A DNA stretch of 64,000 nucleotides from Liolophura sinensis (taxonomy: Eukaryota > Mollusca > Polyplacophora > Chitonida > Chitonidae). The notes under the pieces are model-generated. The model made no database searches, was not told where the DNA came from, and saw nothing but the letters and a program-made list of their open reading frames with translations. The DNA lies in the NCBI RefSeq assembly GCF_032854445.1, contig NC_088305.1, positions 1,493,001 to 1,557,000 of the forward strand. Reading direction: 5' to 3'. Of the stretch, positions 6,101 to 57,540 are shown one piece after another. The first letter of the stretch is position 1, and every line of letters begins with the position of its first letter. The position numbers and the translations under genes were made by a program.

Positions 6101-9100
6101 GTTTCATCTATCACACCACACACCTGCTTCTGGTCTGTTCTGTGTTATCTGCCTCCTGCTGTGATCACAGACACATGGTGCAGCAGATCTGTCAACACCT
6201 GTTTATCTATCACACCACACACCTGCTTCTGGGCTGTTCTGTGTTATCTACCTCCTGCTGTGATCTCAGACACACGGTGCAGCAGATATGTCAACACCTG
6301 TTCATCTATCACACCACACACCTGGTTCTGGGCTGCTCTGTGTTATCTGCCTCCTGCTGTGGTCACAGACACACGGTGCAGCAGATCTGTCAACACCTGC
6401 TCATCTATCACACCACACACCTGCTTCTGGGCTGCTCTGTGTTATCTGCCTCCTGCTGTGATCACAGACACATGGTACAGCAGATCTGTCAGCACCTGTT
6501 CATCTATCACACCACACACCTGCTTCTGGGCTGTTCTGTGTTATCTGCCTCCTGCTGTGATCACAGACACATGGTACAGCAGATCTGTCAACACCTGTTC
6601 ATCTATCACACCACACACCTGCTTCTGGGCTGCTCTGTGTTATCTACCTCCTGCGGTGATCACAGACACATGGTACAGCAGATCTGTCAGCACCTGTTCA
6701 TCTATCACACCACACACCTGCTTCTGGTCTGTTCTGTGTTATCTGCCTCCTGCTGTGATCACAGACACATGGTGCAGCAGATCTGTCAAAACCTGTTTAT
6801 CTATCACACCACACACCTGCTTCTGGGCTGTTCTGTGTTATCTACCTCCTGCTGTGATCTCAGACACATGGTACAGCAGATCTGTCAACACTTGTTCATC
6901 TATCACACCACACACCTGCTTCTGGGCTGCTCTGTGTTATCTGCCTCCTGCTGTGATCACAGACACATGGTGCAGCAGATCTGTCAACACCTGTTTATCT
7001 ATCACACCACACACCTGCTTCTGGGCTGTTCTGTGTTATCTACCTCCTGCTGTGATCTCAGACACATGGTACAGCAGATCTGTCAGCACCTGTTCATCTA
7101 TCACACCACACACCTGCTTCTGGGCTGTTCTGTGTTATCTGCCTCCTGCTGTGATCACAGACACATGGTACAGCAGATCTGTCAGCACCTGTTCATCTAT
7201 CACACCACACACCTGCTTCTGGGCTGTTCTGTGTTATCTACCTCCTGCTGTGATCACAGACACATGGTACAGCAGATCTGTCTACACCTGTTCATCTATC
7301 ACACCACACACCTGTTTCTGGTCTGTTCTGTGTTATCTGCCTCCTGCTGTGATCACAGACACATGGTACAGCAGATCTGTCAATACCTGTTCATCTATCA
7401 CACCACACACCTGCTTCTGGGCTGCTCTGTGTTATCTGCCTCCTGCTGTGATCACAGACACATGGTGCAGCAGATCTGTCAACACCTGTTTATCTATCAC
7501 ACCACACACCTGCTTCTGGGCTGTTCTGTGTTATCTACCTCCTGCGGTGATCACAGACACATGGTGCAGCAGATCTGTCAACACTTGTTCATCTATCACA
7601 CCACACACCTGCTTCTGGGCTGCTCTGTGTTATCTACCTCCTGCGGTGATCACAGACACATGGTGCAGCAGATCTGTCAACACCTGTTTATCTATCACAC
7701 CACACACCTGCTTCTGGGCTGCTCTGTGTTATCTGCCTCCTGCTGTGATCACAGACACATGGTACAGCAGATCTGTCAACACTTGTTCATCTATCACACC
7801 ACACACCTGCTTCTGGGCTGCTCTGTGTTATCTACCTCCTGCTGTGATCACAGACACATGGTACAGCAGATCTGTCAACACTTGTTCATCTATCACACCA
7901 CACACCTGCTTCTGGGCTGCTCTGTGTTATCTGCCTCCTGCTGTGATCACAGACACATGGTACAGCAGATCTGTCAACACCTGTTCATCTATCACACCAC
8001 ACACCTGCTTCTGGGCTGCTCTGTGTTATCTGCCTCCTGCTGTGATCTCAGACACACGGTACAGCAGATCTGTCAACACCTGTTTATCTATCACACCACA
8101 CACCTGCTTCTGGGCTGTTCTGTGTTATCTACCTCCTGCGGTGATCTCAGACACATGGTACAGCAGATTTGTCAACACTTGTTCATCTATCACACCACAC
8201 ACCTGCTTCTGGGCTGTTCTGTGTTATCTACCTCCTGCTGTGATCTCAGACACACGGTACAGCAGATCTGTCAACACCTGTTTATCTATCACACCACACA
8301 CCTGCTTCTGGGCTGTTCTGTGTTATCTACCTCCTGCAGTGATCACAGACACATGGTACAGCAGATTTGTCAACACTTGTTCATCTATCACACCACACAC
8401 CTGCTTCTGGGCTGCTCTGTGTTATCTGCCTCCTGCTGTGATCACAGACACATGGTACAGCAGATCTGTCAACACCTGTTCATCTATCACACCACACACC
8501 TGCTTCTGGGCTGTTCTGTGTTATCTACCTCCTGCTGTGATCTCAGACACACGGTACAGCAGATCTGTCAACACCTGTTTATCTATCACACCACACACCT
8601 GCTTCTGGGCTGTTCTGTGTTATCTACCTCCTGCGGTGATCTCAGACACATGGTACAGCAGATTTGTCAACACTTGTTCATCTATCACACCACACACCTG
8701 CTTCTGGGCTGCTCTGTGTTATCTGCCTCCTGCTGTGATCACAGACACATGGTGCAGCAGATCTGTCAACACCTGTTCATCTATCACACCACACACCTGC
8801 TTCTGGGCTGCTCTGTGTTATCTGCCTCCTGCTGTGATCACAGACACATGGTGCAGCAGATCTGTCAACACCTGTTTATCTATCACACCACACACCTGCT
8901 TCTGGGCTGTTCTGTGTTATCTACCTCCTGCGGTGATCTCAGACACATGGTGCAGCAGTTCTGTCAACACCTGTTTATCTATCACACCACACCTGCTTCT
9001 GGGCTGTTCTGTGTTATCTGCCTCCTGCTGTGATCACAGACACATGGTACAGCAGATCTGTCAATACCTGCTCATCTATCACACCACACACCTGCTTCTG

Positions 9101-9199
9101 GGCTGTTCTGTGTTATCTACCGCCTGCTGTGATCACAGACACATGGTACAGCAGATCTGTCAACACCTGTTCATCTATCACACCACACACCTGCTTCTG
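3192..9199. repeat. Satellite array, 99-bp unit, about 61 copies
   Basis: Unit starts tgatcacagacacatggtac and ends ctgttctgtgttatctgcct plus a short variable stretch. Each unit carries a BclI (tgatca) and usually a BglII (agatct) site. Copies differ at about ten recurrent positions, often the same two alternatives. Ninety-nine is divisible by three and two plus frames lack stops, so ORFs of 994, 655, 1,287 and 1,034 codons arise. They begin or end where units lose 2 bp (near 5125 and 8990) or gain 1 bp (near 6103). No start context, splice pattern or known domain supports coding. Confidence 0.97.
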
Positions 9200-16900: not shown

Positions 16901-19900
16901 CTTTGAACATAAACAAGTAGGTAAGAAAAAGGACTATCACATATGCTCTTTTCTTAACTAAAAATTCTGTTTTCCTCATGGAACATTTGAAAAAAAGTTG
17001 TTTGTTTCCGTTATCAGTTAGACATTTACAAGGGTACACACTCCAGACAGGCAGTATAAAAGTATGAAAGAGAAATTACAAAAGACAAAAGCTACAAGAA
17101 ACAGCTTGTGACCATGATAAAGGTTCCAAACCTAAAATATCTTCCAAGTGAGCAGAAGACAGAGAAAGTTTATTCTGTATCAGTCCTGCTTTCATGACAG
17201 CCAGTACCAGTGCTGCCATCTGGGAGTGAGTGGAAGCAACTTCCTTCAGCAAGGCAGGTAACTCTTGGTGGAAATCCCTAAAGATGTGGCTGGAGAAAAT
17301 AAATCCAATAAACATTGCCCATAACCTCATTTAAAGCTTAACGGGTACACATATACGTAAAAATGTCTGCAAGAAACAAGTGAAACCAGACACTCAAAAC
17401 CAATTCAAAACTCATTTATTTATTGCCTTTGCTCAACTGTTGCTAAATATCATACTTTTCACTTACACAACAGCAGCCAGTTTACAAGTCTTGCAAATTA
17501 GCCTGCTGCAAACATATTTTCAGCCTACAGTACAGTGTGTACGTTGTCTAGAAACTTGCAATGTGAATGTGAATGGCAAGGTACAAGGCATGCATGCTCT
17601 GAGTTTTGTTTCCTGGACATTAGTAGCCGGTCTTTTTGAGCCGAAAAATACAAAACAAAATGACTGATCGACTGACAGACTGACTGGTGTTAAACAACGT
17701 GTTCAAGAACTTTATTCATTTATTTCATTGGGTGTTTTATGTCGTACTGATGAATATTTATCCGATGACGGACAGCATTATGGTGGGAGGAAACCGAGCA
17801 GAGCCCAGGGGAAACCCATCAAGAACTTTAAACTCTTATCTGACAGTGGTCAGAATTATGGTGGGAGGAAACCGAGCAGAGCCCAGGGGAAACCCATCAA
17901 TAACTTCAAACTCTTATCTGACAGTGGTCAGCATTATGGTGGAAGGAAACCGAGCAGAGCCCAGGGGAAACCCATCAAGAACTTCAAACTCTTATCTGAC
18001 AGTGGTCAGCATTATGGTGGGAGGAAACCGAGCAGAGCCCAGGGGAAACCCATCACGAACTTCAAACTCTTATCTGACAGTGGTCAGCTTTATGGTGGGA
18101 GGAAACCCAGCAGAGCCCAGGGGAAACTCATCAAGAATACCTGAATAACCAGAGTAAACCACTGACCCTTGTCAGGTAACTGGCCAGCCTCTTGACGTAC
18201 AAGCGCAGACAAGTAAGTGAGAGCTGGATTTAAACATGTGACCTCATTGGTTAATAGACTGTAGTACAAAACAATACGAAGACAAAAGTCTTCATTATAC
18301 TCACATCGGGCCAACCAGTTCAGATTCCTTGCTCTAACCTCTCAGTGCTGAATGCCAAGAGAGGCAGCAAATAAGTACCACTTCTAAATTCGCTGGTATG
18401 ACCCAATCCGTGTGCATGCAACTTCTACAGTCGATTACATGTACCTTTGAACTCTGAAGTACCCACCTGTGACATGTCACACCTGACCACCAGGGTCTCT
18501 GTGACAGATCTGAGAAGAAGTCCAACAGGATACGTTTTACATAGGATAGCGTGTGAGCCTGGGTGTAGAGCTGATAGCACGCCTCCAGCATCTGCTCGAC
18601 TGTACCTGTGCATGAGGGAAAAACGTGAAAGAATTGAGACACTTTCTCATATGGCAGGGGTAATTAGACTCTTTGTACCTTTAGTGATAAAAAGAGTTTG
18701 ATTACAAGAGACCTGTATACCTACCCTAACTGCATACTGTACAGACGGAACTAATAATATTAAAAACTAAGTATCAATAAGCAGACAGATTCTATTATTA
18801 CATGTAGGTCTATTATTTACACACCAATTCACCACTATGCTTTGCCTATTTCATAACACAACAGTTCTCACCTTTGCCTATGTTAGACCTCAAGATTTGT
18901 CTGATAACACTGATCAGGCATCTTAGGTCTTCTTGGGAAAGTCTTTCAGCCTGAAGGGCTGACAGAACATACTTTGTGACTGGTGAAAACAGGTGCTTGT
19001 GTGCTTCCTTCTCATTGGTCAGATCAGACAGGAAGTAACACATGATGTCACACACTGACAAGTTCAAAGACAATCCAGATGTCTACAATGGAAAAAAAAA
19101 AAGATTTTTTATTGTACTTTATTTTTAATTTTGTTATAAAATACTCAAGAATTTTTCACTTATGCAGCAAAAATCAACCATCCTTTGACAATGCCATCTG
19201 AAAATCCAGATTGTAGTGATACTATCCTGTACCAGGATAAAAACTACACAGAATCAAACCTTTCTTAGAAAATAGAATGTTACGTACTGCATTCACAAAG
19301 ACATGTACACTGCTCTATCACCTCATCTAATTTGATCAAACGAAAACAGAGCCAGCTGGATTTCCAAAGCGATTGTTATGAAAAAAACTGTTCTAGTTTT
19401 ATTAATTTGAATTCAATGAGTCAATATAACAAATAGCAATGTGTGAATGTGGCTCATGCTATAAGAACTCTTGGATGAAAGCATCCAGTTCTATGTAGGG
19501 CAATGTGGCAATTCACCAGTAACAAGGCTTTCCTCTACAAAGACACAGTCTGAAGCTGATCTGTGGAAGACAAGTAGGCTTTCTGTGGATGACAAGCAGG
19601 CGTTCTCCAGACACAGTCTGGAGCTGTCCTGCGGACGACAAGCAGGCTTTCTCCAGACGCAGTCTGGACCCGTTCTGTGAACGACAAGCAGGCTTTCTCC
19701 AGACGCAGCCTGGAGCCGTTCTGCAGAAGACAAGCAGGCTTTCCCCAGATGCAGTCTGGTGCCGTTCTGTGGACAACAAGCAGGCTTTCTCCAGACGCAG
19801 CCTGGAGCCGTTCTGCAGACGACAAGCAGGTTTTCCCCAGACGCAGTCTGGTGCCGTTCTGCGGACGACAATCTGGCTTTCTCCAGACGCAGCTTGGAGC

Positions 19901-28900: not shown

Positions 28901-30666
28901 ATTGGTGTTTTTCCCCGTACTCAAGAATATTTCAATTATACCACGCGGCCATCATTATGGTGGGAGGAACCGGGCCAACCCCCTGGGAAACGGGGTTGGC
29001 CTCTACAGCAGGAGAGGAAGCATGGGCTGGACTTTAACTCAATCGTGTGCCTACCTACAAAATCCACAAATTCTCTGCCCATGGCCGGATTTGAAGGTGA
29101 CATTTGTATTTTCGTAAATAACAGATTTATCACAGAATTTAAACAAACTACAGATCACCCAAAAAGTGCTTTATATATATATAAGAATAACAGAAGCCTC
29201 TCACCCCAGAATATAGCTGTAACTAGTCCACATTCGTTTGCACACAGGGGCAAACTCTTGAGCATGTGCTGCCATCTGGTGAAAGGAAATGACATTTTCT
29301 TCAGGATTTGATGAATCTGACTGATTAGTGCAGCTAGATGTATGCTCTCTGGAGGAATTCTGTGTCAATGCAGTGAGGAATTTTTGCAGTCTCTCCAGAA
29401 CTTTCACTCTCCACTTGAGCGTAGATAGTCTGCTGGTGGGGTTGACACTAAGAGATTGCTCTGCTTGAGAGCGACCTGATGCTGCAATGCGCGTCGAAAT
29501 CTGCTCGACAAAATTCAGCAGTATCTGCGTAGAATTGTTGGTGACAAGGCCGGGAAAGCTGTCCAAGAAAACATCCATGACAAAGAGCGAGTCCATGCGG
29601 ATTTCTTCATAGATATGAGTCATGGCACAGCATAGGTGAGCACTCACCATTGGGAAGAATGGCCCGATCTGATTGGCTGAAAGCTGAGGCAGGACTACCC
29701 TCATTAGACGAATCACAGCCTGTCTTACAACCGGGTCCTTGTCTGTGAAGAGCTCTGAAGTTCTTCCCACAATCATGGGCAAATGAGAATAAAGCAGCGC
29801 TGAGTCTCGCCCGATCAGCTCCCGCAGTCCCGTAACAGCTGAACATCGCACAGAGACGTTATAATGCTGAAGTTGAGACAGAAGTTCCTAAGAAAAAAAA
29901 AACATATTACATGTAGTTTAACTGATCAGTCACTTCACCTTTTGGTACTGGGTATGTAAATTTCCCAGGAATGTACCTAGCACTAATTGCTGAAGGGTTT
30001 AGGCCAGTCGTTTGGTCACACCTCTCAAAAATTAACAAGTAAGACTAGCGCATCATGATGGCTTTTCACAAAAAATGTGAAAGCCTTTAAAAGATTTTTT
30101 TTTAATCACACGAATCACATAATTCTTCCTCAAAAGTTATCTCACCAGAATTTTGATTGACAAAGGTATACGATGCTTTAATCCTTTTAATGCAAACAAA
30201 AAAAATTACTGTCCAAGAACAGGACTGAACTTCTTTTTTATAGGGCAACCCAATGACTGAATGGCAAGCGTTTCGATCATTCGACCTTGAGGCAAGTGTT
30301 ACTCCCTATACATATCCTATTAAAAAAGAGAATTTTGACAAAAGTGTCTTCTTCATTTGCGTAAATTCATTAAAATCCCTACCTCTTTCATTAGAGAGAA
30401 GAAAAAATTATGGCTTGAGAAACTGTTAATATCTGTAACAAGTGTTTACATACCGTGAGGCTGAGCTTCCTGTGAGTGGTGGGTTCTCCACCCTCAGTCC
30501 TTCCTCTAAGCTGCTCAGGCACCTGGATTGTACGAGCTTTGAAGCTGGTCCTTGTCTCATTGTCAGCTTTCGGTAGACGTTTCCCAACCTTCAACTTCAC
30601 CTTTTGAAAATCCTTGTTTTTCTTCTTCTTACCTTTTGGCATTTTCGAAAGGAAGACCTGAAAATC
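10889..30666 (-). CDS. TEX10: TEX10 homologue (Rix1/5FMC complex subunit, Ipi1-type), complete gene with introns
   Basis: Fifteen coding exons join in phase without a stop to give 909 residues (human TEX10 has 929). In gene order: 30642-30454, 29887-29205, 27678-27530, 26579-26476, 25469-25344, 19082-18872, 18605-18467, 17289-17132, 16691-16514, 14225-14140, 13778-13654, 12805-12725, 12219-11913, 11130-11021, 10972-10889. Every intron begins GT and ends AG, and the phases were checked at each junction. The first exon carries the basic start KKKKNKDFQKVKLKVGKRLP, close to human KRKRQHDFQKVKLKVGKKKP. The second has the Ipi1/HEAT-like region with FFPMVSAHLCCAMTHIYEEI. TEX10 family proteins act in the nucleolus and nucleoplasm with PELP1 and WDR18 in 60S ribosome maturation. 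A 5' UTR exon with donor at 31463 probably precedes the start. About 85 per cent of the span is intron, much of it tandem array. The identification is firm; the last exon is the least certain part. Confidence 0.93.
11021..11130 (-). CDS. TEX10: TEX10 coding exon 14
   Basis: Acceptor TCCTGTTCAG, donor GTAACT. It encodes GAHTAVMMLTHIVKTPDLMI, then NLQVDLQKLQTITDTIQ. Human has LRTHMLTNAILVQQIIKNIT. Splicing at the donor leaves phase 0 for the last exon. Reading through the donor also stays open to the same stop, so retention of the 48-bp intron would add 16 residues in frame. Confidence 0.85.
11570..11752 (-). mobile_element. SINE family A, internally deleted copy
   Basis: The tail, body and box A head (gctaaccaactgagccacgg) are present but the box B region is missing. 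It lies in the TEX10 intron between exons 13 and 14. Confidence 0.8.
11913..12219 (-). CDS. TEX10: TEX10 coding exon 13
   Basis: Acceptor CTTTCCAG, donor GTAATA. It encodes THHTTLSYMTCWSVIVIINR, then RLYTSGCPIGDSLRNCVIKL, and later DSVWKAVIGCLAILDPKLVT. Human has [20 protein letters not shown] and later DKLWGVCVSILALLPRVLRL. The ORF start at 12204 is a TTG inside the exon, not an initiator. Confidence 0.9.
12425..12535 (-). mobile_element. SINE family A fragment (box B region)
   Basis: Contains gaagccagcatgagctggac and the reverse of box B. Lies in a TEX10 intron. Confidence 0.6.
12725..12805 (-). CDS. TEX10: TEX10 coding exon 12
   Basis: Twenty-seven codons, phase 0 at both ends, acceptor TTACTTACAG, donor GTAAGC. 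It encodes VTVCLMSQLSQDQCLWLAVS then SFLDHLL. Human has AVFHSLLVIPARSQNFDILQ then SAISKHL. A CA-repeat lies about 75 bp upstream of the acceptor. Confidence 0.85.
12878..12924. repeat. CA-dinucleotide microsatellite
   Basis: Runs of (CA) interrupted by CG; just upstream of the TEX10 exon 12 acceptor. Confidence 0.85.
13078..13235 (-). mobile_element. SINE family A fragment (tail and body)
   Basis: gattggtgttttacaccata then catactcaagaatattacac and the body; diverged, no head. Confidence 0.7.
13654..13778 (-). CDS. TEX10: TEX10 coding exon 11
   Basis: No long ORF marks this exon; it was found by phase and similarity. The acceptor is TTTGTTGCGTAG and the donor GTAAGC. With the carried G it reads GINQAELSSISTHEPGPYVG, then GYLPLRTADDSPTWNRHKAV and TE. 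Human has [20 protein letters not shown] here and later HHWDVTE. It fills the otherwise missing segment between exons 10 and 12. Confidence 0.82.
13994..14186. repeat. 53-bp tandem repeat spanning the TEX10 exon 10 donor, 3.6 copies
   Basis: Copies begin at 13994, 14047, 14100 and 14153 with catgaggaaactgagaaatg. Copies one to three are essentially identical and each contains cttaccc, the reverse of a GTAAG donor. The fourth copy is partial and lies inside the coding exon. Confidence 0.95.
14140..14225 (-). CDS. TEX10: TEX10 coding exon 10, tail and donor present in tandem copies
   Basis: The acceptor is TGTCCTGACAG. The exon encodes RFVSCDTKPSGKTFCTLDTF, then LSFLMTVALG. Human has RSSFSGWKYSAKDWLMSDVD then YFSFLFSTLTG. 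The last 32 or so bases of the exon plus the GTAAGT donor sit at the start of a 53-bp tandem repeat. Identical candidate donors therefore follow at exon ends 14140, 14087 and 14034. Only the first keeps the frame. Use of the second adds 53 bases and gives a stop soon afterwards (in the sequence ending HFSVSS). Confidence 0.87.
14786..15372. repeat. 42-bp minisatellite, about 14 copies (TEX10 intron)
   Basis: Unit contains tcatttcttatctgaaaaac and aggtgttagcatcaaaag. Copies alternate between a few variants (caggtgttagcatc and ctggtgttagcttc), suggesting block-wise expansion. Confidence 0.95.
15423..15545. repeat. About 20-bp degenerate minisatellite, 5-6 copies
   Basis: Unit tatggtatttatttgtgaag with substitutions. 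It bridges the 42-bp array and the SINE tail that precedes the 16-bp array. Confidence 0.8.
15586..16384. repeat. 16-bp array, about 50 copies, inside a SINE remnant
   Basis: Unit gatgccatgacggtca with c/g/a changes. Each unit carries the near-palindrome TGACNGTCA. The left flank (15540-15590) is a SINE family A tail (tatttatttgatt, then catactcatgaatggttcac), so the array appears to have grown inside a SINE. It lies in the intron after TEX10 exon 9. Confidence 0.95.
16514..16691 (-). CDS. TEX10: TEX10 coding exon 9
   Basis: Acceptor TTGCACAG, donor GTATGT. It encodes AANEGIFVSLSCSNQRLIVD, then MMFYVHTLDKDHFRNIAKII. Human TEX10 has VVVLPADSQQRLVQLVYFLP here. The exon ends YFVEVLFN plus AG. 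A 16-bp tandem array begins about 130 bp downstream of the donor. Confidence 0.9.
17132..17289 (-). CDS. TEX10: TEX10 coding exon 8
   Basis: Acceptor TTTTCTCCAG, donor GTTTGG (a weak but GT donor). It encodes SHIFRDFHQELPALLKEVAS, then HSQMAALVLAVMKAGLIQNK and HLEDIL. It falls in the poorly conserved helical middle of TEX10, and the phase matches both neighbours. Confidence 0.85.
17712..18134. repeat. 78-bp tandem array derived from SINE family A, about 4.7 copies
   Basis: Unit includes attatggtgggaggaaaccg and agcagagcccaggggaaacc, which are SINE body sequence, plus a non-SINE spacer (aacttcaaactcttatctga). The left edge is an ordinary SINE tail. Because 78 is a multiple of three, 138- and 153-codon ORFs appear; they are not genes. 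Confidence 0.93.
18140..18400. repeat. Dispersed repeat remnants
   Basis: Contains agagtaaaccactgaccc and attccttgctctaacctctc. The latter recurs at 13,450-13,480 (tttccttgctctaacctctc). The family is not identified. Confidence 0.5.
18467..18605 (-). CDS. TEX10: TEX10 coding exon 7
   Basis: Acceptor GCACAG, donor GTGGGT. With the carried base it reads GTVEQMLEACYQLYTQAHTL, then SYVKRILLDFFSDLSQRPWW. Human has TLIKAVYTLYQQRGLILPVR followed by TLLLKFFSKIY. The competing longer ORFs in other frames do not fit the phase. Confidence 0.88.
18872..19082 (-). CDS. TEX10: TEX10 coding exon 6
   Basis: The acceptor is CATTGTAG after a T-run and the donor GTGAGA. It encodes TSGLSLNLSVCDIMCYFLSD, then a helical region ending VIRQILRSNIGK plus one base. 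Human TEX10 has LLLNLTLSDIMVSLANAST at the same place. It is the first exon after the large repeat-filled intron. Confidence 0.92.
19556..20672. repeat. 46-bp hairpin minisatellite, about 24 copies (TEX10 intron)
   Basis: Unit gacgacaagcaggctttctc followed by cagacgcagtctggagccgt and tctgcg. Each unit contains the inverted repeat tccagac-gca-gtctgga. The unit is GC-rich compared with its surroundings and is open in several frames on both strands. Confidence 0.96.
20709..25165. repeat. 75-bp tandem array, about 60 copies, with higher-order blocks
   Basis: Unit runs gatgtctcctgtccgtcatc, accaagtgatgtgttacatg, tttattgacagttgtgtgta, catgttataaatgtt. Shortened units (gttgtgtgtcctgtc) recur near 20,930, 21,350, 22,085 and 22,810. 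The last three are about 730 bp apart and flanked by matching variants, showing a multi-unit repeat. The array fills most of the TEX10 intron between exons 5 and 6. Confidence 0.97.
25344..25469 (-). CDS. TEX10: TEX10 coding exon 5
   Basis: Exactly 42 codons, phase 0 at both ends, acceptor TATACAG, donor GTGAGT. It encodes SDWVPSEYRKDFIKHVMSYF then PYSVHEAPRRKDKKLIP. The human counterpart is [20 protein letters not shown]. The following intron is 6.3 kb and almost wholly tandem repeat. Confidence 0.92.
25925..26095. repeat. Dispersed repeat, copy 1
   Basis: gggttaaatcctgcagcctt, then tgaacgaatgtaccatac and a cagcttaggctcggcata stretch. A second copy lies at about 42,960-43,140. Family unknown. 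Confidence 0.6.
26476..26579 (-). CDS. TEX10: TEX10 coding exon 4
   Basis: The acceptor is TTTTTAG and the donor GTAAGT. It encodes DGLVSPDSLVVMVNVVNVIK then LLWRYVRSISSEEGN. The human counterpart reads LQVMQQVLNIISLLWKLSKQ. Entry phase 2, exit phase 0. Confidence 0.9.
27530..27678 (-). CDS. TEX10: TEX10 coding exon 3
   Basis: The exon enters with one base completing a glycine codon. It encodes AKSLVNTDNKPRLDRSDVSC, then MFVKSLLPLLLECWVEATAI. The latter matches human FIEIIIPLLIECWVEAVPPQ. The donor is GTAAAG. The acceptor ACCTAAACAG is fused directly to a 20-bp minisatellite (see findings). Confidence 0.95.
27683..28425. repeat. 20-bp minisatellite, about 36 copies, fused to TEX10 exon 3 acceptor
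   Basis: Unit on the plus strand is gtgagtagcagcaaatactg. Read in gene orientation it is CAGTATTTGCTGCTACTCAC, so each junction offers a CTACTCACCAG sequence like a 3' splice site. The last unit runs into the genuine acceptor (TTTGTTGCTACCTAAACAG). Confidence 0.95.
28885..29095 (-). mobile_element. SINE family A, diverged copy
   Basis: Tail and body (ccgtactcaagaatatttca, attatggtgggaggaaccgg) followed by degenerated box B region. Lies just downstream of TEX10 exon 2 in gene order. Confidence 0.7.
29205..29887 (-). CDS. TEX10: TEX10 coding exon 2 (Ipi1/HEAT-like core)
   Basis: The acceptor is CTTAG after a T-rich tract and the donor is GTGAGA. The exon opens ELLSQLQHYNVSVRCSAVTG, which continues exon 1 and mirrors human DLLSQMHHYNAGVKQGALLG. 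It contains FFPMVSAHLCCAMTHIYEEI and SVNPTSRLSTLKWRVKVLER, both strongly like human TEX10. It ends in SYSYILG with two bases left over. Confidence 0.95.
30454..30642 (-). CDS. TEX10: TEX10 coding exon 1 (start codon)
   Basis: The ATG lies at 30642-30640. The exon itself probably opens at 30666 after a TTTTTCTTGTAG acceptor. It encodes 63 residues, beginning with a lysine-rich stretch and FQKVKLKVGKR and ending RKLSLT, which matches human RKLNIK. The donor is GTATGT and the phase is 0. The downstream residues that read through the donor (VCKHLLQ) are intron. Confidence 0.93.
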
Positions 30667-31463: not shown

Positions 31464-31930
31464 TTGAAAACGTAGTGCCTTCCTCGACCTCAACTATGCT
31501 TGACACAGTTGCAAGTGTTTGAGATATTTTAAAGAAAAGTTGTCATTATTTGTTACAATCTTATAATGTTCACACGTTTGTCACATGGGCGCCGCCATAT
31601 CATAAATACAAAGTGTGGCTAAATGTACAACTAAAGAAGAAAACGAAGAAGGTTACTGCCTCAAATTGATTTATTACGTACAATAAATTTATTCTCATCA
31701 CACCAGTTTTATTTTGCTATGTTTTCTGGATATATGAACTCATGTACGATGAACTGAGGCAAGTCTTTCCTTTCGAAGCTGTCTTATTTTTTAGGTGACT
31801 TTCCGGAACATTAATTTTTACAATTACCCAGTTCGAGATCTCGCGTTATCAAAACGTCGTACACGTGTCTCTGGAAAGCGTAAGTGTTGACGTTTAAAGC
31901 AGAAGTAGCACGAACAGCTGTTGGATCATC
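31464..31930. promoter_or_regulatory. Divergent TEX10/SWEET promoter region
   Basis: TEX10 (minus) and SWEET (plus) point away from this interval. On the minus side a likely 5' UTR exon ends at 31463 with donor GTAAAT. On the plus side a likely 5' UTR exon ends at 31938 with donor GTAAGT. A GCCGCCAT motif at 31591-31598 matches the YY1 core often found near starts of housekeeping genes. No TATA box is evident. The exact transcription starts cannot be read from sequence. Confidence 0.5.
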
Positions 31931-32389
31931 AATTCCGGGTAAGTTGTGTAAACGTGTGTCTGTCATATGTTTTACTCTGTGGGTTGTAAATAAACCTTAG
32001 ATGGTGTAGTCCTCAGTTTAGGTGGGTAATACGTGTTAGATTTTCTCTGGAATTTGAAAAAATCACTGGCCTAATCACAGCTTTACATACATGTATCACT
32101 CACTATCTGTTGCCTTTTTTTTATTTCTGGTGTCAAATTAAACCTTATGCCACTCAGCATGACTATAATGTTTGGCTGGTAAGAAGAGAACTGAACTATG
32201 GGGTTGAATGAATTGAAATGTGGATGTATTTTTTTTTTAATGTACACAACAGTTGACAAAGTAACTTATCACAGGTCTGTGGTTTATCCCAGACACTGAG
32301 TTTCCAGGCACTGAGTTTCCATCACGTGTAAAACATGAATTGCTCACATTCGTGTGATAAAGTGAAAAAGTAGGGTGGTAAGCAACACA

Positions 32390-32435
32390 GTGAATGAATG
32401 AATGAATGAATGAATAAATAAATAAGTATAAAAGA
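32390..32435. repeat. GAAT/AAAT tetranucleotide microsatellite
   Basis: (tgaa)n followed by (taaa)n; upstream intron of SWEET. Confidence 0.8.
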
Positions 32436-32494
32436 AATGAATAAATATACTGTCCATTAATCTTCAAATGAAGGTTTTTACTTCAATTGAATGG

Positions 32495-33105
32495 TCCTTC
32501 ACGTTGTTGGAAAAACTTTGGATATTATATCCTGGACATTGTTGGAAAAACGTAGGAAATTAGTTCGTTGACAGTGCAGGAAAAACATAGGAGATTAGGT
32601 CCTTGACAGTGCTGGAAAAATGTAGGGAATTAGAACCTTGTCAGTTCTGGAAAAACTTAGGATATTAGGCCCTCAACGATGCTGGAAAAACATAGGATCT
32701 TAGATCCTTGTCAGTGATGGAAAAACTTAGGATATTAGGTCCTTTGTGGTGTTGAAAATACTAAGGATATTCGGTCCTTGTCGGTACTGAAAAAAGAACT
32801 TAGGAAATTTTATTGTTGACGGTGCTGAAAAAACTTAGGAGATTAGGACCTTGACAGTGCTGGAAAAGAGTCCTAGGGAATTAGGACCTTGTCGGTGCTA
32901 GAAAAACTTAGAAAATTAGGTGCTCTGTCGGTGCTGCAAAAAGAACTTAGGAAATTTGATCCTTGACGGTGCTGGAAAAAATTAGGATATTAGGTCCTTG
33001 ACAGTGCTGCAAAAACTTAGGATATTAGGTCCTTGATGGTGCTGGAAAAACTTAGGAAATTAGGTCCTTGACGGTGCTGCAAACCTTAGGATATTAAGTC
33101 CTTGA
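32495..33105. repeat. 35-bp minisatellite, about 17 copies (SWEET 5' intron)
   Basis: Unit includes ggtccttgacagtgctgg and aaaaacttaggatatta, with many indels and substitutions, so it looks older than the other arrays. Confidence 0.92.
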
Positions 33106-33417
33106 AAGCGGTGGGAGAACTTGTTGTATTAGGGTTTTCACAGATGATGGGAACCATGTATTTGTTAGAAAGAATGGTTGTATAATTACTTTACCTTGGC
33201 TAATTACTGTGTTTATGTAATATAATGAGGTTACATGGAGTTTTTTTGTTTTTTTTAGGCAGTCCTTTAAAAAGCACCAGACTTGGTCGAGAGGTGCCCA
33301 ATAAACATAAATGCATTTTTGATGATTACCTTTTATGTATTGGGATATGTCACAAGATATGCGCTGTTCACATATTTCTTGTATTTTACCCTAAATTAAT
33401 CTGTCATTAATGGGCAG

Positions 33418-36400
33418 GTTCTTACGCGACAGTAGGCAGATTGTGAACTGATTCGAACGGATGAGGGAAGCTCTAATTTGAACGGATGGGGGATGCTCTG
33501 ATTTGAACGGATGGGGGATGCAAAGTTCATGTTGTCATGGATCACAGCCATTACATCGGTGGTGGTCCAAATGGTGGGAATGTAAGTAGAAATCTTAACA
33601 TCCAGGAAAACAATCAAAAACCAGCTCTGGATGATAAGGCTCTGTGAAAACTGAATATTAATGAATGTTAATTCAATAGATCAAAAGATTTATTTATTTA
33701 TTTAGTTGATTGGTGTTTTACGCCATACTCAAGAATATTTCACTTATACGACTGCGGCCAGCATTATGATGGGTGGAAATCCAGCACAGCCCAGGGGAAA
33801 CCCCCGACCATCCGCAGGCTGCTGGCAGACCTTTCCACTTACGGCCGGAGAGGAAGCCAGCATGAGCTGGACTTGAACTCACAGCGACGACATTCGTGAG
33901 AGGCTCCTGGGTCATTAGGCTGCACTTGCACCCTAACCAACTAAGCCACGGAGGCCCCTAGGTCTAAGGAAAAAATTATATCAGTTGTACTATTGTTCAA
34001 GCAACAAAACTTAAATTTTCATCTCCCTCCAGCATGGTACATGATGTATACTCATCTGTCCGACACGCCTGGGGAAAGTTGATCAGTCAAGTGTTGTGTT
34101 TTACCCTAACTTTGTTTTACCCCTCCTAAAAAATGTCTGCTAGAGTACATGTTTGTAAATCCCAAATCCTCCACAAATTCAACCACAGACGTGGTGAAGT
34201 CCACATGTCAGCACCTAAACAACAGTTTAGTCTTTAAAATCTTATGAGTTGTCTTCAAATTGCATCTTAATTTATTTAAGTTTGGCATGCTGTTGTAATG
34301 AGAGTTATGAGAGGCATATGGATTTATGTGCCCTTCCCCAACCCTGCCACACACCACACACACACCACACACACACCACACACACACCACACACACACCC
34401 AGCCACGTCCTGGGGCAACCTCATGATATGTCGGGCAACAAAAACACCTTGTATGTGTATATGTGTAATTCCAGGCTGTCTATCGGTCTTGTGCTCAATT
34501 ACTAAACTTATGGCAATCATTTACATGTAAACATATCACGACTAAATTTCAGTCTCTAAAATAATGAATAGTATTGTGTATTTTATGGTTTACTAGACAC
34601 ATACTTTGAAAAAAATCTTGTGAACGCATATTAAAGCATTGCCCTACCTACCTGAGTTTTCTGGTCATGCCCTGCCTACCTGAGTTTTCTGGTCACGACC
34701 TGCCTACCTGAGTTTTCTGGTCATGCCCTGCCTACCTGAGTTTTCTGGTCATGCCCTGCTTACCTGAGTTTTTCTGGTCACGACCTGCCTACCTGAGTTT
34801 TCTGGTCACGCCCTGCCTACCTGAGTTTTCTGGTCACGACCTGCCTACCTGAGTTTTCTGGTCATGCCCTGCCTACCTGAGTTTACTGGTCACGCCCTGC
34901 CTACCTGAGTTTTCTGGTCATGCCCTGCCTACCTGAGTTTACTGGTCACGCCCTGCCTACCTGAGTTTACTGGTCATGCCCTGCCTACCTGAGTTTACTG
35001 GTTATGCCCTGTCTACCTGAGTTTACTGGTCATGCCCTGCCTACCTGAGTTTACTGGTCATGCCCTGCCTACCTGAGTTTTCTGGTCATGCCCTGCCTAC
35101 CTGAGTTTACTGGTCACGCCCTGCCTACCTGAGTTTCCTGGTCACGCCCTGTCTACCTGAGTTTTCTGGTCATGCCCTGCCTACCTGAGTTTTCTGGTCA
35201 CGACCTGCCTATCTGAGTTTTCTGGTCACGACCTGCCTACCTGAGTTTACTGGTCACGCCCTGCCTACCTGAGTTTTCTGGTCACGCCCTGCCTACCTGA
35301 GTTTTCTGGTCACGACCTGCCTACCTGAGTTTTCTGGTCACGACCTGCCTACCTGAGTTTTCTGGTCACGCCCTGCCTACCTGAGTTTTCTGGTCATGCC
35401 CTGCCTACCTGAGTTTTCTGGTCAAGCCCTGCCTACCTGAGTTTTCTGGTCACGCCCTGCCTACCTGAGTTTTCTGAACATGCCCTGCCTACCTGAGTTT
35501 TCTGGTCATGCCCTGCCTACCTGAGTTTTCTGGTCACGACTCCATAGAGGCATGAGAGGAATAAGTCTATCATAATATTGTAATTGTAATTTTTCTTGCA
35601 GGCAGATATGTTTCAGAATTGTAAGGAAGGGCAGCACAGGTGACATGTCCAACATTCCCTTCCTCTCCTACTTCATCTGGTATGTATGCACTGGCATTAA
35701 TTATAAATGTGAAAGGCCAAAGCAGATGATTTTCAAAATTACAAGAAATATTGACTACAAATCTGAAGTTTCATTTGAGGAAAGTTTTGATGCTTTTTTA
35801 TAGAGGTGCCATAATGATGAAACATTAAAATTATGGTATGGCATTGTGTGTTCATCTTCTGTGACAGTTCTCGTGTCATTAGCACTTGGATATTGTCCTG
35901 TTTAAAGTTTGATTTAAGGATTCATGAGATGAATTGTTTGCATTTTGTAACATGCACTGTTTGTCAACATGTCTGACATGTCAAAGATTTCTCAGTCTTC
36001 CTCAGGAAGAGGGGGATAGGGTGCTAAGCTTGTCCTGCTAGACGTCATCAATGACGTCATTTCTAAAAATTTCCAACAATTGACAAGAAAATATTTTTCA
36101 CAAATTCATTTATTAAGATTCTCTGATGTTCTTAGTTTCCATGTCAACAGGTTTTGCTGAGACGCCTTGTTGTCTCTAAGTGCTGTTTTGCCTGTCCTCC
36201 ATACAGTTTACTGTTAACCTAAATTCTCAGCGTTTTCGCATATGACAAAGCAACTTTCAGTGCAATTTATGCACATTATTAATTTGATTTTGGAGGCAAA
36301 ACTACATTGGTTGGGTTGGCCAAATTCAGGGCTTCACAAAGAGTATAATTTGATCAGTCTACATAAAATAATGCCTTCAGAATATGCTTGAATGAACACC

Positions 36401-39400
36401 TTTGCAAACATGCTAAAAGATTGAGGAATTACAGTACTCTTCATCTTGCTTACAGTGCATGTATCTGGCTACGGTATGGCCTCCTCACCCACATCCCGGC
36501 CGTGGTCCTGGTCAACCTTACTGCCGCCCTCCTACAGTTCTCCTACATGACAGTCTTCTATCTCTACTGTCTACAGAGAGTGAGTTGCATAACATCATTC
36601 CTAGGGACCAGAATCTGACAGGATCTTATTTGATTAGTTGCTTTGATTAATTGGCAATGAAAAGAAAAGAAAAACGCAGAAATTCCAGAAGCAGTGGCAA
36701 CTTTTTCTGACTTTGATATGCCTCTAAAAATACCAGTACTATTTTGGGTGTGAAATTTCAGGTATTTGACAGTAGTGCACAAATAATGCTGGGGAGGTGT
36801 TACAGGCAGTGGTGCGCTTAAATCAGAACTGTTTTCTTATACTTTATTGGTTCAGGCAGTAAGACAACCTTACTTGTTTGAGAACATTTTTCTCATCCTT
36901 TTTTTTTTATTATTTTTTCTTGAGTCAGAGAATAGTTGTTTTCTGACTCCCAAGAAAAAGTGAGAAATTTTAAGAAATAAGAGAGGTTTTTTTTCCTTAA
37001 ATAAGGAAGTTTTTTTACTGTGTGTTATCTCAGACATGTACAATGTATAAGCTATGCTGATAATTTGCTAAGATTACCGTTCGAAGGCTGCCATGATATC
37101 CCTGACTTTCACTATCTGTGTGGACTTGGTGACATCTACCTTTACCTGTAGCCGCCGACAATGCTCGTGTGGCTGTCAATTTATTGGGACTTCTAGTCCT
37201 CCACCAGTATGGTGTGCATATCTGTCCAACACATGTTTGAAAGATTTTCTGTAACTTGCCAGAGTTTGGTGGTTTACGCCAGGCGCAACATGGTTGCCAT
37301 CACGTCAGTGAAAAATGCTGTTAAAAACAACAGTTTTAGCAGTTGCGGGCCATGTGCATATATACACACTAAATAGGCATGACCTTTCAAACAACATCGA
37401 TTGTGCCTCGCAACACACTGGCCGGAATGTTTACCTCCTTGTATAATATCAGATTATGCTGCTCATTTCTACAAACAAAAGAATTTGAGTTCGTTTTCTT
37501 TTAGATTTGCTTTTGTGATTGATATAAAGATGAACTGTCAGAATTTCCTTCAGTGATAAAAGTGTTATTTCACACTTTATAGATAGTTTATAGATATCGC
37601 TTTGGTTTATACATTTTCATGTTTTACCCCCACGCCATGATGTTGAAAAAGAAACGTGTCAAGACATTCCAATCTGAGCTCAGCGGTATGATGTCATAAT
37701 ACATGTGAACTTTTACATTTCTACGTAACGCAACAATAAGACCCGACGTAATATATGGGCAACTTTGACGTATCTAGGCCAACTGCTATGGCTTAAACCT
37801 GTGGCTGATTGGTCTAAAATGCTTGAGGGAGTGAAAGAGAATAGCTACAAGAAATATGCAGTTTTGGCCCATTTTCTTCATTTTTTGGGGTAGAACGCTT
37901 TCATCTTGTCTTGTTTTTGTTGTTTGTTGTGTCACCTGATACCGCTGAACCTTGTTTTTGTGTCTCGTTAAATCCTTGCATGCTTGGGATTTGACTCAGT
38001 ACGAAGAAAGGTTCAGGGGTACCGGGTGACACAACAAACACCAAGAGGATAGGGTTTATACCCTTAATCAAAATAATCAAATAAAGGATGCCATCATTAA
38101 AAGTGTTTACATTGGTCATCAGTCAACTGACCGTCTTGTTTTCAGACACATCTCTATCGCCAGTACATGATTGGCTGCTCTACGCTGTTTGGAATATTAG
38201 CATATATCAAGTATTTTGTGCCGGATGAAGCCACGGCAAAGGATCACTTGGGTTTACTAGGCTGCCTATTTACTGTCATTGGCTACGGTGCACCCCTAGC
38301 CACCCTGGTAAGTTATCTCCCCTAGTGTTGTTCTTTAGACTGTTGTATCTGATGGGAACATTGCATCTTGGGATGTCTACTGGAGTAAGATGCCAAGGTC
38401 AGATAAAAGCCGAAGCGGCATTTCAGGAGTCTTGAAAGTTCATGGAGGTCTAGACGAGATAAGGCCAGGGCTCTCGCAAACAAACAGGTGATTTTGCAGT
38501 AGCTTTTAACAACACCCTTGAGGTAACTGACCAGACCATGTGAGATATGTACCGTTTAGCAGTTACCCTAAAATCACGCATTTTTAGCTGTGTTAGTTGA
38601 CGAGAGTCCCAGAACCTGCATGAACTGGCGAGACACCTGAAATGCTGATTTGGCCTATTACATAGAGTTGAATGACACTGTGCATGTAGTATTTATGTGT
38701 GTATAGACATTAATACTGGTTGCATGACACTGTGCATGTAGTATGTATCAGCATATAGACATTGATACCAGTTGAATGACACTGTGCATGTAGTATTTAT
38801 GTGTGTATAGACATTAATACTGGTTGCATGACACTGTGCATGTAGTATTTATCTGTGTATAGTCATTGATACTAGTTGAATGACACTGTGCATGTAGTAT
38901 TTGTCTGTGTATAGACATTAATACTGGTTGCATGACACTGTGCATGTAGTATTTGTCTATGTATAGACATTGATACTAGTTGAATGACACTGTGCATGTA
39001 GTATTTGTCTGTTTATAGACATTGATACTAGTTGAATGACACTGTGCATGTAGTATTTAGGTGTGTATAGACATTAATACTGGTTGCATGACACTGTGCA
39101 TGTAGTATTTGTCTGTGTATAGACATTGATACTAGTTGAATGACACTGTGCATGTAGTATTTGTCTGTGTATAGACATTGATACTAGTTGAATGACCCTG
39201 TGCATGTAGTATTTGTCTGTGTGTAGACATTGATACTAGTTGCATGACACTGTGCATGTAGTATTTGTCTGTGTATAGACATTGATACTAGTTGAATGAC
39301 ACTGTGCATGTAGTATTTGTCTGTGTATAGACATTGATACTAGTTGAATGACACTGTGCATGTAGTATTTAGGTGTGTATAGACATTAATACTGGTTGCA

Positions 39401-41021
39401 TGACACTGTGCATGTAGTATTTGTCTGTGTATAGACATTGATACTAGTTGCATGACACTGTGCATGTAGTATTTGTCTGTGTATAGACATTGATACTAGT
39501 TGAATGACCCTGTGCATGTAGTATTTGTCTGTGTATAGACATTGATACTAGTTGAATGACACTGTGCATGTAGTATTTGTCTGTGTATAGACATTGATAC
39601 TGGGAACAAAAACTCATTAGTTATTTTTGTTTCATCTTTTTGTACTGATCATGTCACATATGGCAACATGAAAAACCCAGAAATCATCACTTCCAAAAAA
39701 ATTATGAGCCAGTGGAGTTTCAAATTCTGTCTTGTGAAAGTATTTGGTGAATGTTTGTCAATTTTTTCATCAAGCAGGAATTCCACCGTTATGTCAGACA
39801 GCAATTTACAGATATGTTCTGTGTTGTATTTGGGGCAGTGCTGTGTATGCAATTTCATAATTATTGTGATGCTTACTTTGTCTCACCCCCAGTAAAATAT
39901 GGACCTTCAGTTTGATACAAAGATATACTATCATTATTATTATTATTATTTCATTATCATTATGATTACATTATCATTATTATCACATCGTCATTATTAT
40001 TACATTATCATTATTACTATCGCTATCCTCATGATCACTGTTATTATGTTTGTGACAGGCTGATGTTTTGCAAACAAAGAGCACAGAGTCTATGTCTTTC
40101 CTGATGTGCTTTGCCAATCTGGTTGTTGCCTTTGAATGGGGGTGGTATGGATATCTACTTAAAGACGCTTACATTGGAGTAAGTTGCATTTGTTGTCTTC
40201 ATATTTTCATTTCAATTCTTTGATTTCAAGCTCTACGCCATACTCAAGAATATTTCACTTAAACGATGGAGTCCAGCATTATGGTGGGAGGAAACTCACG
40301 ACCATCCGCCAGTTGCTTTCTAGACATGCTACAGCCCAGTTATAAGCTGCTTGGCGTTAAACTACAATGCGGTAGCTTTGAGTTCAAGTCCAGCTCATGT
40401 TGGCTTTCTCTTCAGCCATAAGTGGGATGGTTGTGGATTTTGCCCGGGCTCTGCCCAGTTTCCTCCCAAAATAATGCTGGCTGCCGTTGTATAAGTGAAA
40501 TATTCTTGAGTTCACTGTAGAACACCAATCACATAAATAAATCCAAACTACAAAGTTCAGGTTCGAATTTGTAAGTCCCCACTCTAACATCGTACTAAGG
40601 AATTTTTCACTTATACCAAGGCAAATAATGTCTCTGTGGTAAACTCTGCAATTTTACCCATGTACACATATGAGGTAAGGGTTCAACCCTGGCTGTGGAC
40701 AGCAAATTTGTAGATTTCTGAGTTCTTTTGTCATGGAGTTTTTGTGATAATAATATCAGTGATCCAGTCTTACATTTCTTGAAGACTGTTTGTTTTCCAT
40801 CACATAAGGACAATATCAAGTCGATCAGTAACTTGTCCAAGCTTTCGGGTTTAATTTGCTGCTTTCTGATGAAGAAAAAAGGAAATATGAATGTTTTTTT
40901 TGTTTTTTTTTTGCAGGTACCAAACATCTTTGGTATTATACTGGGAGCGTTACAAATGTACCTGTTTATCAAATTCCCATCATCCAAAACTCGGTCTACT
41001 TCTAAGGCGCTTTTGGCATGA
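33418..41021 (+). CDS. SWEET1: SWEET1-type sugar transporter (SLC50 family), complete coding gene
   Basis: Six coding exons (33511-33581, 35602-35679, 36456-36579, 38146-38307, 40059-40178, 40917-41021) join in phase to 660 bases, giving 219 residues; human SWEET1 has 221. All introns are GT-AG. The protein shows two MtN3/saliva repeats. The first contains QICFRIVRKGSTGDMSNIPF and WLRYGLL. The second contains VLQTKSTESMSF and WGWYGYL. It ends in a short charged tail. SWEETs are seven-helix facilitators that move mono- or disaccharides down their gradient across plasma or Golgi membranes. The first coding exon is preceded in the same exon by two six-codon uORFs. Introns hold a 28-bp and a 52-bp tandem array, a foldback element and an inverted SINE pair. 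The family call is secure; SWEET1 rather than another paralogue is inference. Confidence 0.92.
33457..33523 (+). repeat. 25-bp triplication at the SWEET start codon
   Basis: Unit gaacggatgggggatgctct plus gattt; copies start about 33457, 33481 and 33506. The third carries the start of the coding sequence. Confidence 0.9.
33461..33506 (+). promoter_or_regulatory. Two tandem six-codon uORFs before the SWEET start
   Basis: ATG at 33461 opens MREALI then TGA; ATG at 33486 opens MGDALI then TGA. The main ATG at 33511 opens MGDAKF. All three ATGs lie in copies of one 25-bp unit and share the upstream context gaacgg, so scanning ribosomes meet two starts of nearly equal strength first. Repression or conditional control of SWEET translation follows as inference. 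Confidence 0.6.
33511..33581 (+). CDS. SWEET1: SWEET coding exon 1 (start codon, first helix)
   Basis: It encodes MGDAKFMLSWITAITSVVVQ then MVG and two bases of a methionine codon completed by the next exon (MQIC). This is the usual short N-terminus plus first helix. The donor is GTAAGT. The exon probably opens at 33418 after a TTAATGGGCAG acceptor. The start is the third copy of a 25-bp repeat. The in-frame ATG at residue 7 is an alternative start. Confidence 0.85.
33689..33958 (-). mobile_element. SINE family A, full length
   Basis: Complete reverse copy from the tatttatttatttagttgat tail to the gccacggaggcccc head. Lies in SWEET intron 1. Confidence 0.88.
34346..34403. repeat. CA-rich microsatellite (CACACACCA units)
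   Basis: Repeated cacaccacacacacac. Plus-strand intron of SWEET. Confidence 0.85.
34642..35540. repeat. 28-bp minisatellite, about 32 copies (SWEET intron)
   Basis: Unit ctacctgagttttctggtca then tgccctgc; substitutions cycle between a/t and c/t at two or three sites. It ends about 60 bp before SWEET exon 2. Confidence 0.96.
35602..35679 (+). CDS. SWEET1: SWEET coding exon 2
   Basis: The acceptor is TTTTTCTTGCAG and the donor GTATGT. It encodes MQICFRIVRKGSTGDMSNIP then FLSYFI, the conserved loop and second helix of the first MtN3 repeat. The 28-bp array ends about 60 bp upstream of this exon. Confidence 0.93.
36456..36579 (+). CDS. SWEET1: SWEET coding exon 3
   Basis: Acceptor TTGCTTACAG, donor GTGAGT. 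With the carried bases it reads CACIWLRYGLLTHIPAVVLV then NLTAALLQFSYMTVFYLYCL. It includes the WLRYG motif and the asparagine-containing third helix typical of SWEETs. Confidence 0.93.
37921..38040. repeat. Foldback (inverted-repeat) element in SWEET intron
   Basis: Arms 37921-37953 and 38008-38040 are inverted copies; I count 30 of 33 matching (start tgtttgttgtgtcacc). A shorter inner pairing (aaatcc/ggattt) lies near the centre. It sits about 105 bp upstream of SWEET exon 4. It could be a small MITE or a structured RNA. Confidence 0.75.
38146..38307 (+). CDS. SWEET1: SWEET coding exon 4
   Basis: Fifty-four codons, phase 0 at both ends, acceptor TTGTTTTCAG, donor GTAAGT. It encodes THLYRQYMIGCSTLFGILAY, then the linker IKYFVPDEATAKDHLGL and the start of the second repeat, ending GYGAPLATL. 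Confidence 0.93.
38666..39602. repeat. 52-bp minisatellite, 18 copies (SWEET intron)
   Basis: Unit gaatgacactgtgcatgtag, tatttgtctgtgtatagaca, ttgatactagtt. Variants gaatgac/gcatgac and ttgatactag/ttaatactgg co-vary, indicating multi-unit blocks. Confidence 0.96.
39930..40045. repeat. ATT/ATC trinucleotide low-complexity tract
   Basis: Repeated attattatcattatt; ends just before SWEET exon 5. Confidence 0.8.
40059..40178 (+). CDS. SWEET1: SWEET coding exon 5
   Basis: Forty codons, phase 0, acceptor TTTGTGACAG, donor GTAAGT. It encodes ADVLQTKSTESMSFLMCFAN then LVVAFEWGWYGYLLKDAYIG, the hallmark of the second MtN3 repeat. Confidence 0.95.
40225..40545. mobile_element. Inverted pair of SINE family A fragments
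   Basis: 40225-40325 is a reverse body/tail fragment (catactcaagaatatttcac). 40371-40545 is a forward fragment ending aagtgaaatattcttgagtt. Together they could form a hairpin just after the donor of SWEET exon 5. Confidence 0.7.
40917..41021 (+). CDS. SWEET1: SWEET terminal coding exon 6
   Basis: The acceptor is a long T-run then GCAG. It encodes VPNIFGIILGALQMYLFIKF then PSSKTRSTSKALLA and TGA. This is the seventh helix (PNIFG motif) and a short cytosolic tail. No clear polyadenylation signal was seen before the tandem array that starts near 41618. Confidence 0.93.
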   Translation, partial: VPNIFGIILGALQMYLFIKFPSSKTRSTSKALLA

Positions 41022-50611: not shown

Positions 50612-50875
50612 TAAAGGGCTCTCCGTGGCCAAAGGGACTAGTACGCCACCACAGCGCAATTCCCCGGGAGCCTCGCACCAATGCGGTTGCTGTAAGTTCA
50701 AGTCCAGGTCATGCTTGCTTCCTCTCCGGCTGTAAGTGGGATGGTCTTCCAACAACCTGTTGATATTCGTAGGTTTCGACGGGCCTGTGCTCGATTTTCT
50801 CCCACCATAATGCTGGTCGCCGTCGTATGAGTAAAACATTCGTAAGTACGGTCTAAAACACCAATCAGAAAAATA
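50612..50875 (+). mobile_element. SINE family A, near full length
   Basis: Head ggctctccgtggccaaaggg, box B gtaagttcaagtccagg, body gctcgattttctcccaccat, tail caatcagaaaaataaat. More diverged in the head than the copy at 58-331. Confidence 0.8.
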
Positions 50876-57357: not shown

Positions 57358-57540
57358 TGCAAGTCCAGCGCATGCTGGCTTCCTCTCCTGCCGTAAGTGG
57401 GAAGGTCTACCAGCAACCTGAGGATGGTCGTGGGTTTCCGCCGGGCTCTGTCCAGTTTCCTCCCACCATAACGCTGGCCGCCGTCGTGTAAGTGAAATAT
57501 TCTTGAGTACGGCTTAAAACACAAATCAAATAAATAAATT
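57358..57540 (+). mobile_element. SINE family A, 3' two-thirds
   Basis: gcaagtccagcgcatgctgg through cagtttcctcccaccataac to the (aaat)n tail; head missing. Confidence 0.85.

Follow-up and report, generated by a model that had tools for sequence, protein, structure and literature searches.

The start codon of a SWEET (SLC50-type) predicted sugar transporter gene of Liolophura sinensis lies in the last of three tandem copies of a 25-bp unit, and the same array contains three very small upstream open reading frames (uORFs), which are most simply read as the product of the start region having been duplicated in tandem. We put at roughly 0.55 the probability that these three uORFs, together with leaky scanning past weak starts, bring about a modest and constant drop in SWEET synthesis. 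The gene was analysed within a stretch of 64,000 nucleotides, the whole of which is called the window here.

The SWEET gene

Six coding exons on the plus strand are spliced into a product of 219 aa:

33511-33581, + strand: SWEET coding exon 1, from the start codon to the donor gtaagt, with a second in-frame ATG at 33529 (M7)
35602-35679, + strand: SWEET coding exon 2
36456-36579, + strand: SWEET coding exon 3
38146-38307, + strand: SWEET coding exon 4
40059-40178, + strand: SWEET coding exon 5
40917-41021, + strand: SWEET coding exon 6, with the stop TGA at 41019-41021

The protein matches the Pfam family MtN3_slv (PF03083) in two stretches (6.5e-42, 141.9 bits against a cut-off of 23.7), and two MtN3_slv repeats in one protein are what defines membership of the SWEET / SLC50 family. 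The solved SWEETs 5xpd (1.4e-19, query residues 11-210) and 5ctg (7.2e-14) are matched as well, and on these sequence matches the gene is a SWEET (SLC50-type) predicted sugar transporter. When relatives of the protein were sought in viral contigs, one pattern match was obtained and none was confirmed.

A TGA at 33499-33501 is in frame with the coding sequence and no AG lies in the 9 nt that separate it from the ATG at 33511, so translation of SWEET must start within coding exon 1: the predicted start is M1 (33511) or an in-frame ATG farther on, for example M7 (33529), and the 5xpd alignment, which runs from residue 11 on, is compatible with either. The same TGA, with no AG between it and 33511, also rules out that a coding exon farther upstream is joined to the SWEET frame.

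Coding intron 1 contains, at 33700-33960, an interspersed element that we take to be SINE-like, other pieces of which are found at 57-316 (85%), 57360-57535 (86%), 50652-50867 (80%) and 40366-40538 (72%), among others. Part of this element is also included in the unit of a 78-bp tandem array at 17773-18137, which suggests that a fragment of the element turned into a minisatellite. Elsewhere in the introns of the gene, the segment at 37901-38064 has the strongest predicted fold (-82.6 kcal/mol over 164 nt) of 120 windows in 30-42 kb, and by eye is an inverted repeat.

The probable leader upstream of the gene

The mRNA probably includes the 25-bp copies, as suggested by an upstream candidate promoter, a strong donor, and candidate acceptors that come before the first ATG of the array (33461):

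31661-31999, no strand assigned: candidate promoter and non-coding first exon, from CpG o/e (putative role)
31938-31944, + strand: candidate donor of the non-coding exon (TTCCGG/GTAAGT), the best in 31600-33455
33259, + strand: strong candidate acceptor (first exonic base), in the top 0.12% of 3,439 AG sites
33418, + strand: weak candidate acceptor (first exonic base), in the top 12.6% of AG sites

CpG o/e in 200-nt windows within 31661-31999 is 1.5-1.6 (up to 1.62), compared with 0.48 for the whole window; the stretch is not unique in this, since 45 of the 3,190 200-nt windows across the 64 kb reach at least 1.4. It lies between the SWEET gene and a TEX10-like/Ipi1-like gene on the minus strand (29201-30642) that is arranged head to head with it, and the CpG-rich sequence may serve both. 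The minus-strand gene matches human TEX10 in two segments, one with 46.6% in 178 columns of the alignment (E 1.5e-48) and one with 57.7% in 52 (E 1.5e-12), and Pfam Ipi1_N at 2.6e-19. An Rfam search over 31500-36000 gave no match at the gathering threshold.

Splice sites were scored with an approximate metazoan consensus matrix, which ranks sites fairly and is not a trained predictor; by this score the donor at 31938 is in the top 0.21% of 4,727 plus-strand GT sites. The ranks of the five SWEET coding donors run from the top 0.5% to the top 3.1%, and all five coding acceptors are within the top 2.1% of plus-strand AG sites. Further acceptor-like sites, with scores between those of 33259 and 33418, are all located farther upstream. 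Either of the two listed acceptors would keep the array in the mRNA, and they differ in what precedes it: via 33418 the array ATGs are the sole ATGs before the main start in that exon, and via 33259 six more come ahead of the array (33311, 33322, 33335, 33347, 33359 and 33410), such that the array uORFs may see few ribosomes if this acceptor is in use. No ATG occurs in 31750-31938 and four occur in 31640-31749, and hence the outcome would also hinge on the position of the transcription start.

Were transcription to start within or just 5' of the array (about 33440-33510), most mRNAs would be without some or all of the uORFs. The CpG o/e of 0.89 in 33300-33499 is above average and agrees with such a start, but a stronger CpG-rich stretch is found at 31.7-31.94 kb together with an excellent donor, and a canonical core promoter was not seen by eye near 33.4 kb; we consider a start at the array unlikely.

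The 25-bp array and its reading frames

The array consists of three adjoining copies:

33448-33472, + strand: copy 1 of the 25-bp unit, with CGA where copies 2 and 3 show TGA
33473-33497, + strand: copy 2 of the 25-bp unit
33498-33522, + strand: copy 3 of the 25-bp unit, containing the main start codon

A threefold 25-bp unit had been reported in the preliminary description, with 33457 as its first base; the triplication is borne out and its start is corrected to 33448 (by Tandem Repeats Finder the last base is 33521, base 33522 being different). In pairwise comparison there are 4 differences in 25 bases between copies 1 and 2, again 4 between copies 1 and 3, and 2 between copies 2 and 3. At a lag of 25 the array matches itself at 44 of 50 bases, whereas the maximum under a first-order Markov null model (500 simulations of 1 kb, lags 15-40) was 30 and the mean 25.0; with up to 3 mismatches allowed, the unit occurs three times in the 64,000-base window and not once in 100 shuffles. 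Chance does not account for the triplication. Mis-assembly is a known hazard with short tandem arrays, and as an artefact of this kind one or two of the copies would be absent in the animal, but the copies are distinguishable (2-4 differences in 25 bases) and the 75-bp array is shorter than an ordinary read; we regard the artefact as highly improbable.

Tandem arrays fill 23,169 of the 64,000 bases of the window (36%; 34 arrays, hand-merged from 74 Tandem Repeats Finder rows), so that an array at the SWEET start is unremarkable in itself. Among the others, the array at 3193-9199 repeats a 99-bp unit some 61 times with 95% matches, and the long open frames that overlap within it (677 to 1318 codons) are expected from the periodicity, as 99 is a multiple of 3. 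Nine coding stretches were tested for overlap with an array (the six SWEET exons, two TEX10-like stretches and one peroxidase stretch), and SWEET exon 1 alone overlaps one. The peroxidase stretch, at 62305-63096 on the minus strand, encodes part of an animal haem peroxidase (Pfam An_peroxidase, 3.7e-77).

Three ATG-to-stop frames are contained in the array, and we infer that they are located in the mRNA leader:

33461-33481, + strand: uORF1, MREALI-TGA, its stop 4 nt ahead of the ATG of copy 2
33486-33506, + strand: uORF2, MGDALI-TGA, its stop 4 nt ahead of the main ATG
33493-33501, + strand: uORF3, the start-stop frame ATG-CTC-TGA, its ATG in copy 2 and its TGA in copy 3, with G at -3

The translations previously given for the ATGs of copies 1 and 2 were both recovered, and copy 3 does hold what had been called the true start (MGDAKF), its ATG opening MGDAKFMLSW... 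and splicing into the 219-aa protein; two uORFs, however, was an undercount, the start-stop frame having been missed. The near-identical context claimed for the ATGs is confirmed by the six preceding bases (gaacgg), which are the same at 33461, 33486 and 33511. The base at -3 is thus C at these three ATGs, and G at 33493. As a rule G at -3 makes a better start context than C, and the context common to the hexacodon and main ATGs is not strong. Copy 3 carries an extra out-of-frame ATG at 33518, which opens 28 codons in the spliced model.

Because the period of 25 is a multiple of 3 plus 1, the ATG of each copy falls in a new frame. Each hexacodon uORF has for its stop the TGA that TTTGAACGG of the following copy supplies, and this TGA is the sole stop in the frame of each as far as the exon end at 33581. 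Copy 1 carries TTCGAACGG in place of TTTGAACGG, one CpG/TpG change apart (CGA vs TGA). If the C is ancestral, the uORF produced by the first duplicate would have extended past the main start, and a change from CpG to TpG that was passed on to copies 2 and 3 would then have closed it. The TGA of uORF3 (33499-33501) doubles as the in-frame stop just 5' of the main ORF, with 9 nt between them.

Proposed effect on translation and known parallels

According to the reading we favour, a 25-bp segment reaching from the last bases of the 5' leader into the first SWEET codons would have been duplicated twice in tandem (the number and order of these events being presumed), such that the ATG of each copy came to be out of frame with the next and the TGA of the following copy ended the uORF after six codons. 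An mRNA begun farther upstream, at a non-coding exon with its 3' end at 31938, would then carry three tiny uORFs directly before the main start. Ribosomes initiating at the uORFs would mostly be lost to the main start, which would be reached chiefly through leaky scanning past weak ATGs (C at -3); the net outcome, in presumed sign and size, would be a SWEET synthesis that is modestly and constantly lowered, with some initiation possibly moved to the in-frame M7.

The spacers measure 4 nt from each hexacodon stop to the ATG of the next copy, and 9 nt after the start-stop uORF. In excerpts of a review (PMC5972666), reinitiation after a short uORF is said to require a minimum spacer, and DENR-MCT-1 to be able to support reinitiation regardless of spacing. 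With 4-nt spacers classical reinitiation would be disfavoured, and in combination with the weak start context this points to leaky scanning as the most likely route to the main start; DENR-MCT-1 reinitiation, if acting, would make the array uORFs less costly. If small subunits resume once uORF1 or uORF2 has been translated, they might use M7, which lies 47 and 22 nt past the respective stops, yielding a protein six residues shorter.

It had been proposed that the duplication created paired uORFs as a way to gain translational control of the transporter. The creation of the uORFs by duplication stands, as the simplest reading of the sequence, but dedicated control is unsupported in view of the 4-nt gaps, the peptides that differ at 2 of 6 residues and the weak context, and sugar-responsive control via the array uORFs is unsupported too. 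More likely than dedicated control is a modest, constant repression through leaky scanning, or no measurable effect at all.

A lack of measurable effect would be expected if the array is a neutral minisatellite, one more short array in a window already rich in them, that leaves SWEET output as it was because few ribosomes initiate at its ATGs or because other ATGs dominate. The weak C at -3 of two of the three upstream array ATGs is consistent with this, as is the strong acceptor at 33259, which would place six other ATGs first; but this is the sole array to touch any of the nine coding stretches, and upstream ATGs very near a main start usually cost some output. We regard neutrality as possible, if somewhat unlikely.

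Effects of RNA structure must be weighed as well, given that partly self-complementary copies could form a hairpin over the starts and slow scanning, in which case the structure and not the uORFs would matter. The segment 33418-33581 has a predicted fold of -50 kcal/mol, with a z of -2.58 and a stability matched by 3 of 200 shuffles, and the ATGs at 33461, 33486 and 33511 are predicted to be only about 0.3 unpaired, compared with 0.97 for 33493. Folds at least equally strong are nevertheless predicted for 8 of 120 overlapping 164-nt windows in 30-42 kb, and we judge the hairpin a very unlikely explanation.

The uORF of AMD1 (SAMDC), as far as is known, needs the exact peptide MAGDIS. It has six codons, as do uORF1 and uORF2 (excerpts of PMC11900008), and the SWEET array differs from it in having other peptides (MREALI and MGDALI), three uORFs and a 4-nt gap to the main start. 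The two hexapeptides, each followed by an immediate stop, might arrest the ribosome upon a metabolite in the manner of AMD1, but they differ from each other at positions 2 and 3 and neither is MAGDIS, the peptide of AMD1-type arrest; to peptide-specific stalling we attach next to no weight.

Short uORFs are common, and those of the SWEET array are ordinary in kind and neat in origin. A tandem-repeat 5'-UTR tied to protein level is already known from TYMS. To our knowledge, the 28-bp unit of TYMS is without a duplicated start codon, unlike the unit of the SWEET array. The human TYMS 5'-UTR repeat (2R/3R) resembles the SWEET array in its similar unit length and its two or three copies, and more TS protein is reported for the 3R allele in excerpts of PMC2528158, the reference list of which includes a title linking the repeat variant to USF-1 binding and transcription. 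Leaders of the GCN4/ATF4 type also have several short uORFs ahead of one ORF; GCN4-type reinitiation rises with spacer length (excerpts of PMC5972666), and the spacer it uses for ternary complex reacquisition has no counterpart in the SWEET array (4 nt; 9 nt after the start-stop uORF). The human insulin uORF INSU was likewise created by a small leader indel, a 16-bp deletion in that case (excerpts of PMC13314798) and presumably a tandem duplication of the start in this one.

Among the matches listed in a limited search of the open literature, which does not imply absence from print, none dealt with uORFs arising from tandem duplication of a start codon. For SWEET in molluscs or oysters no paper was found in an open-literature search, and the matches listed for uORFs of SWEET or sugar transporters appeared, by title or start of abstract, to be on plant topics.

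The 25-bp unit brings with it an ATG as well as a stop for the ATG frame of the preceding copy, and so an added copy would be an added closed uORF that leaves the protein untouched. It is conceivable, though doubtful, that the array is a copy-number-variable dial, with the copy numbers of individuals stepping SWEET translation down by a fixed factor, and that a uORF which overlapped the start and blocked it strongly was converted to a closed and tolerable form by the CpG-to-TpG change, which the second duplication then spread. If the leader is as proposed, the array would be a clear sequence record of the birth of uORFs through tandem duplication of a start codon, in which the period sets each copy in a new frame and the stop of the next copy closes the uORF, and it suggests that further cases, in which protein output depends on how many times a start codon has been duplicated, may be found in genomes.
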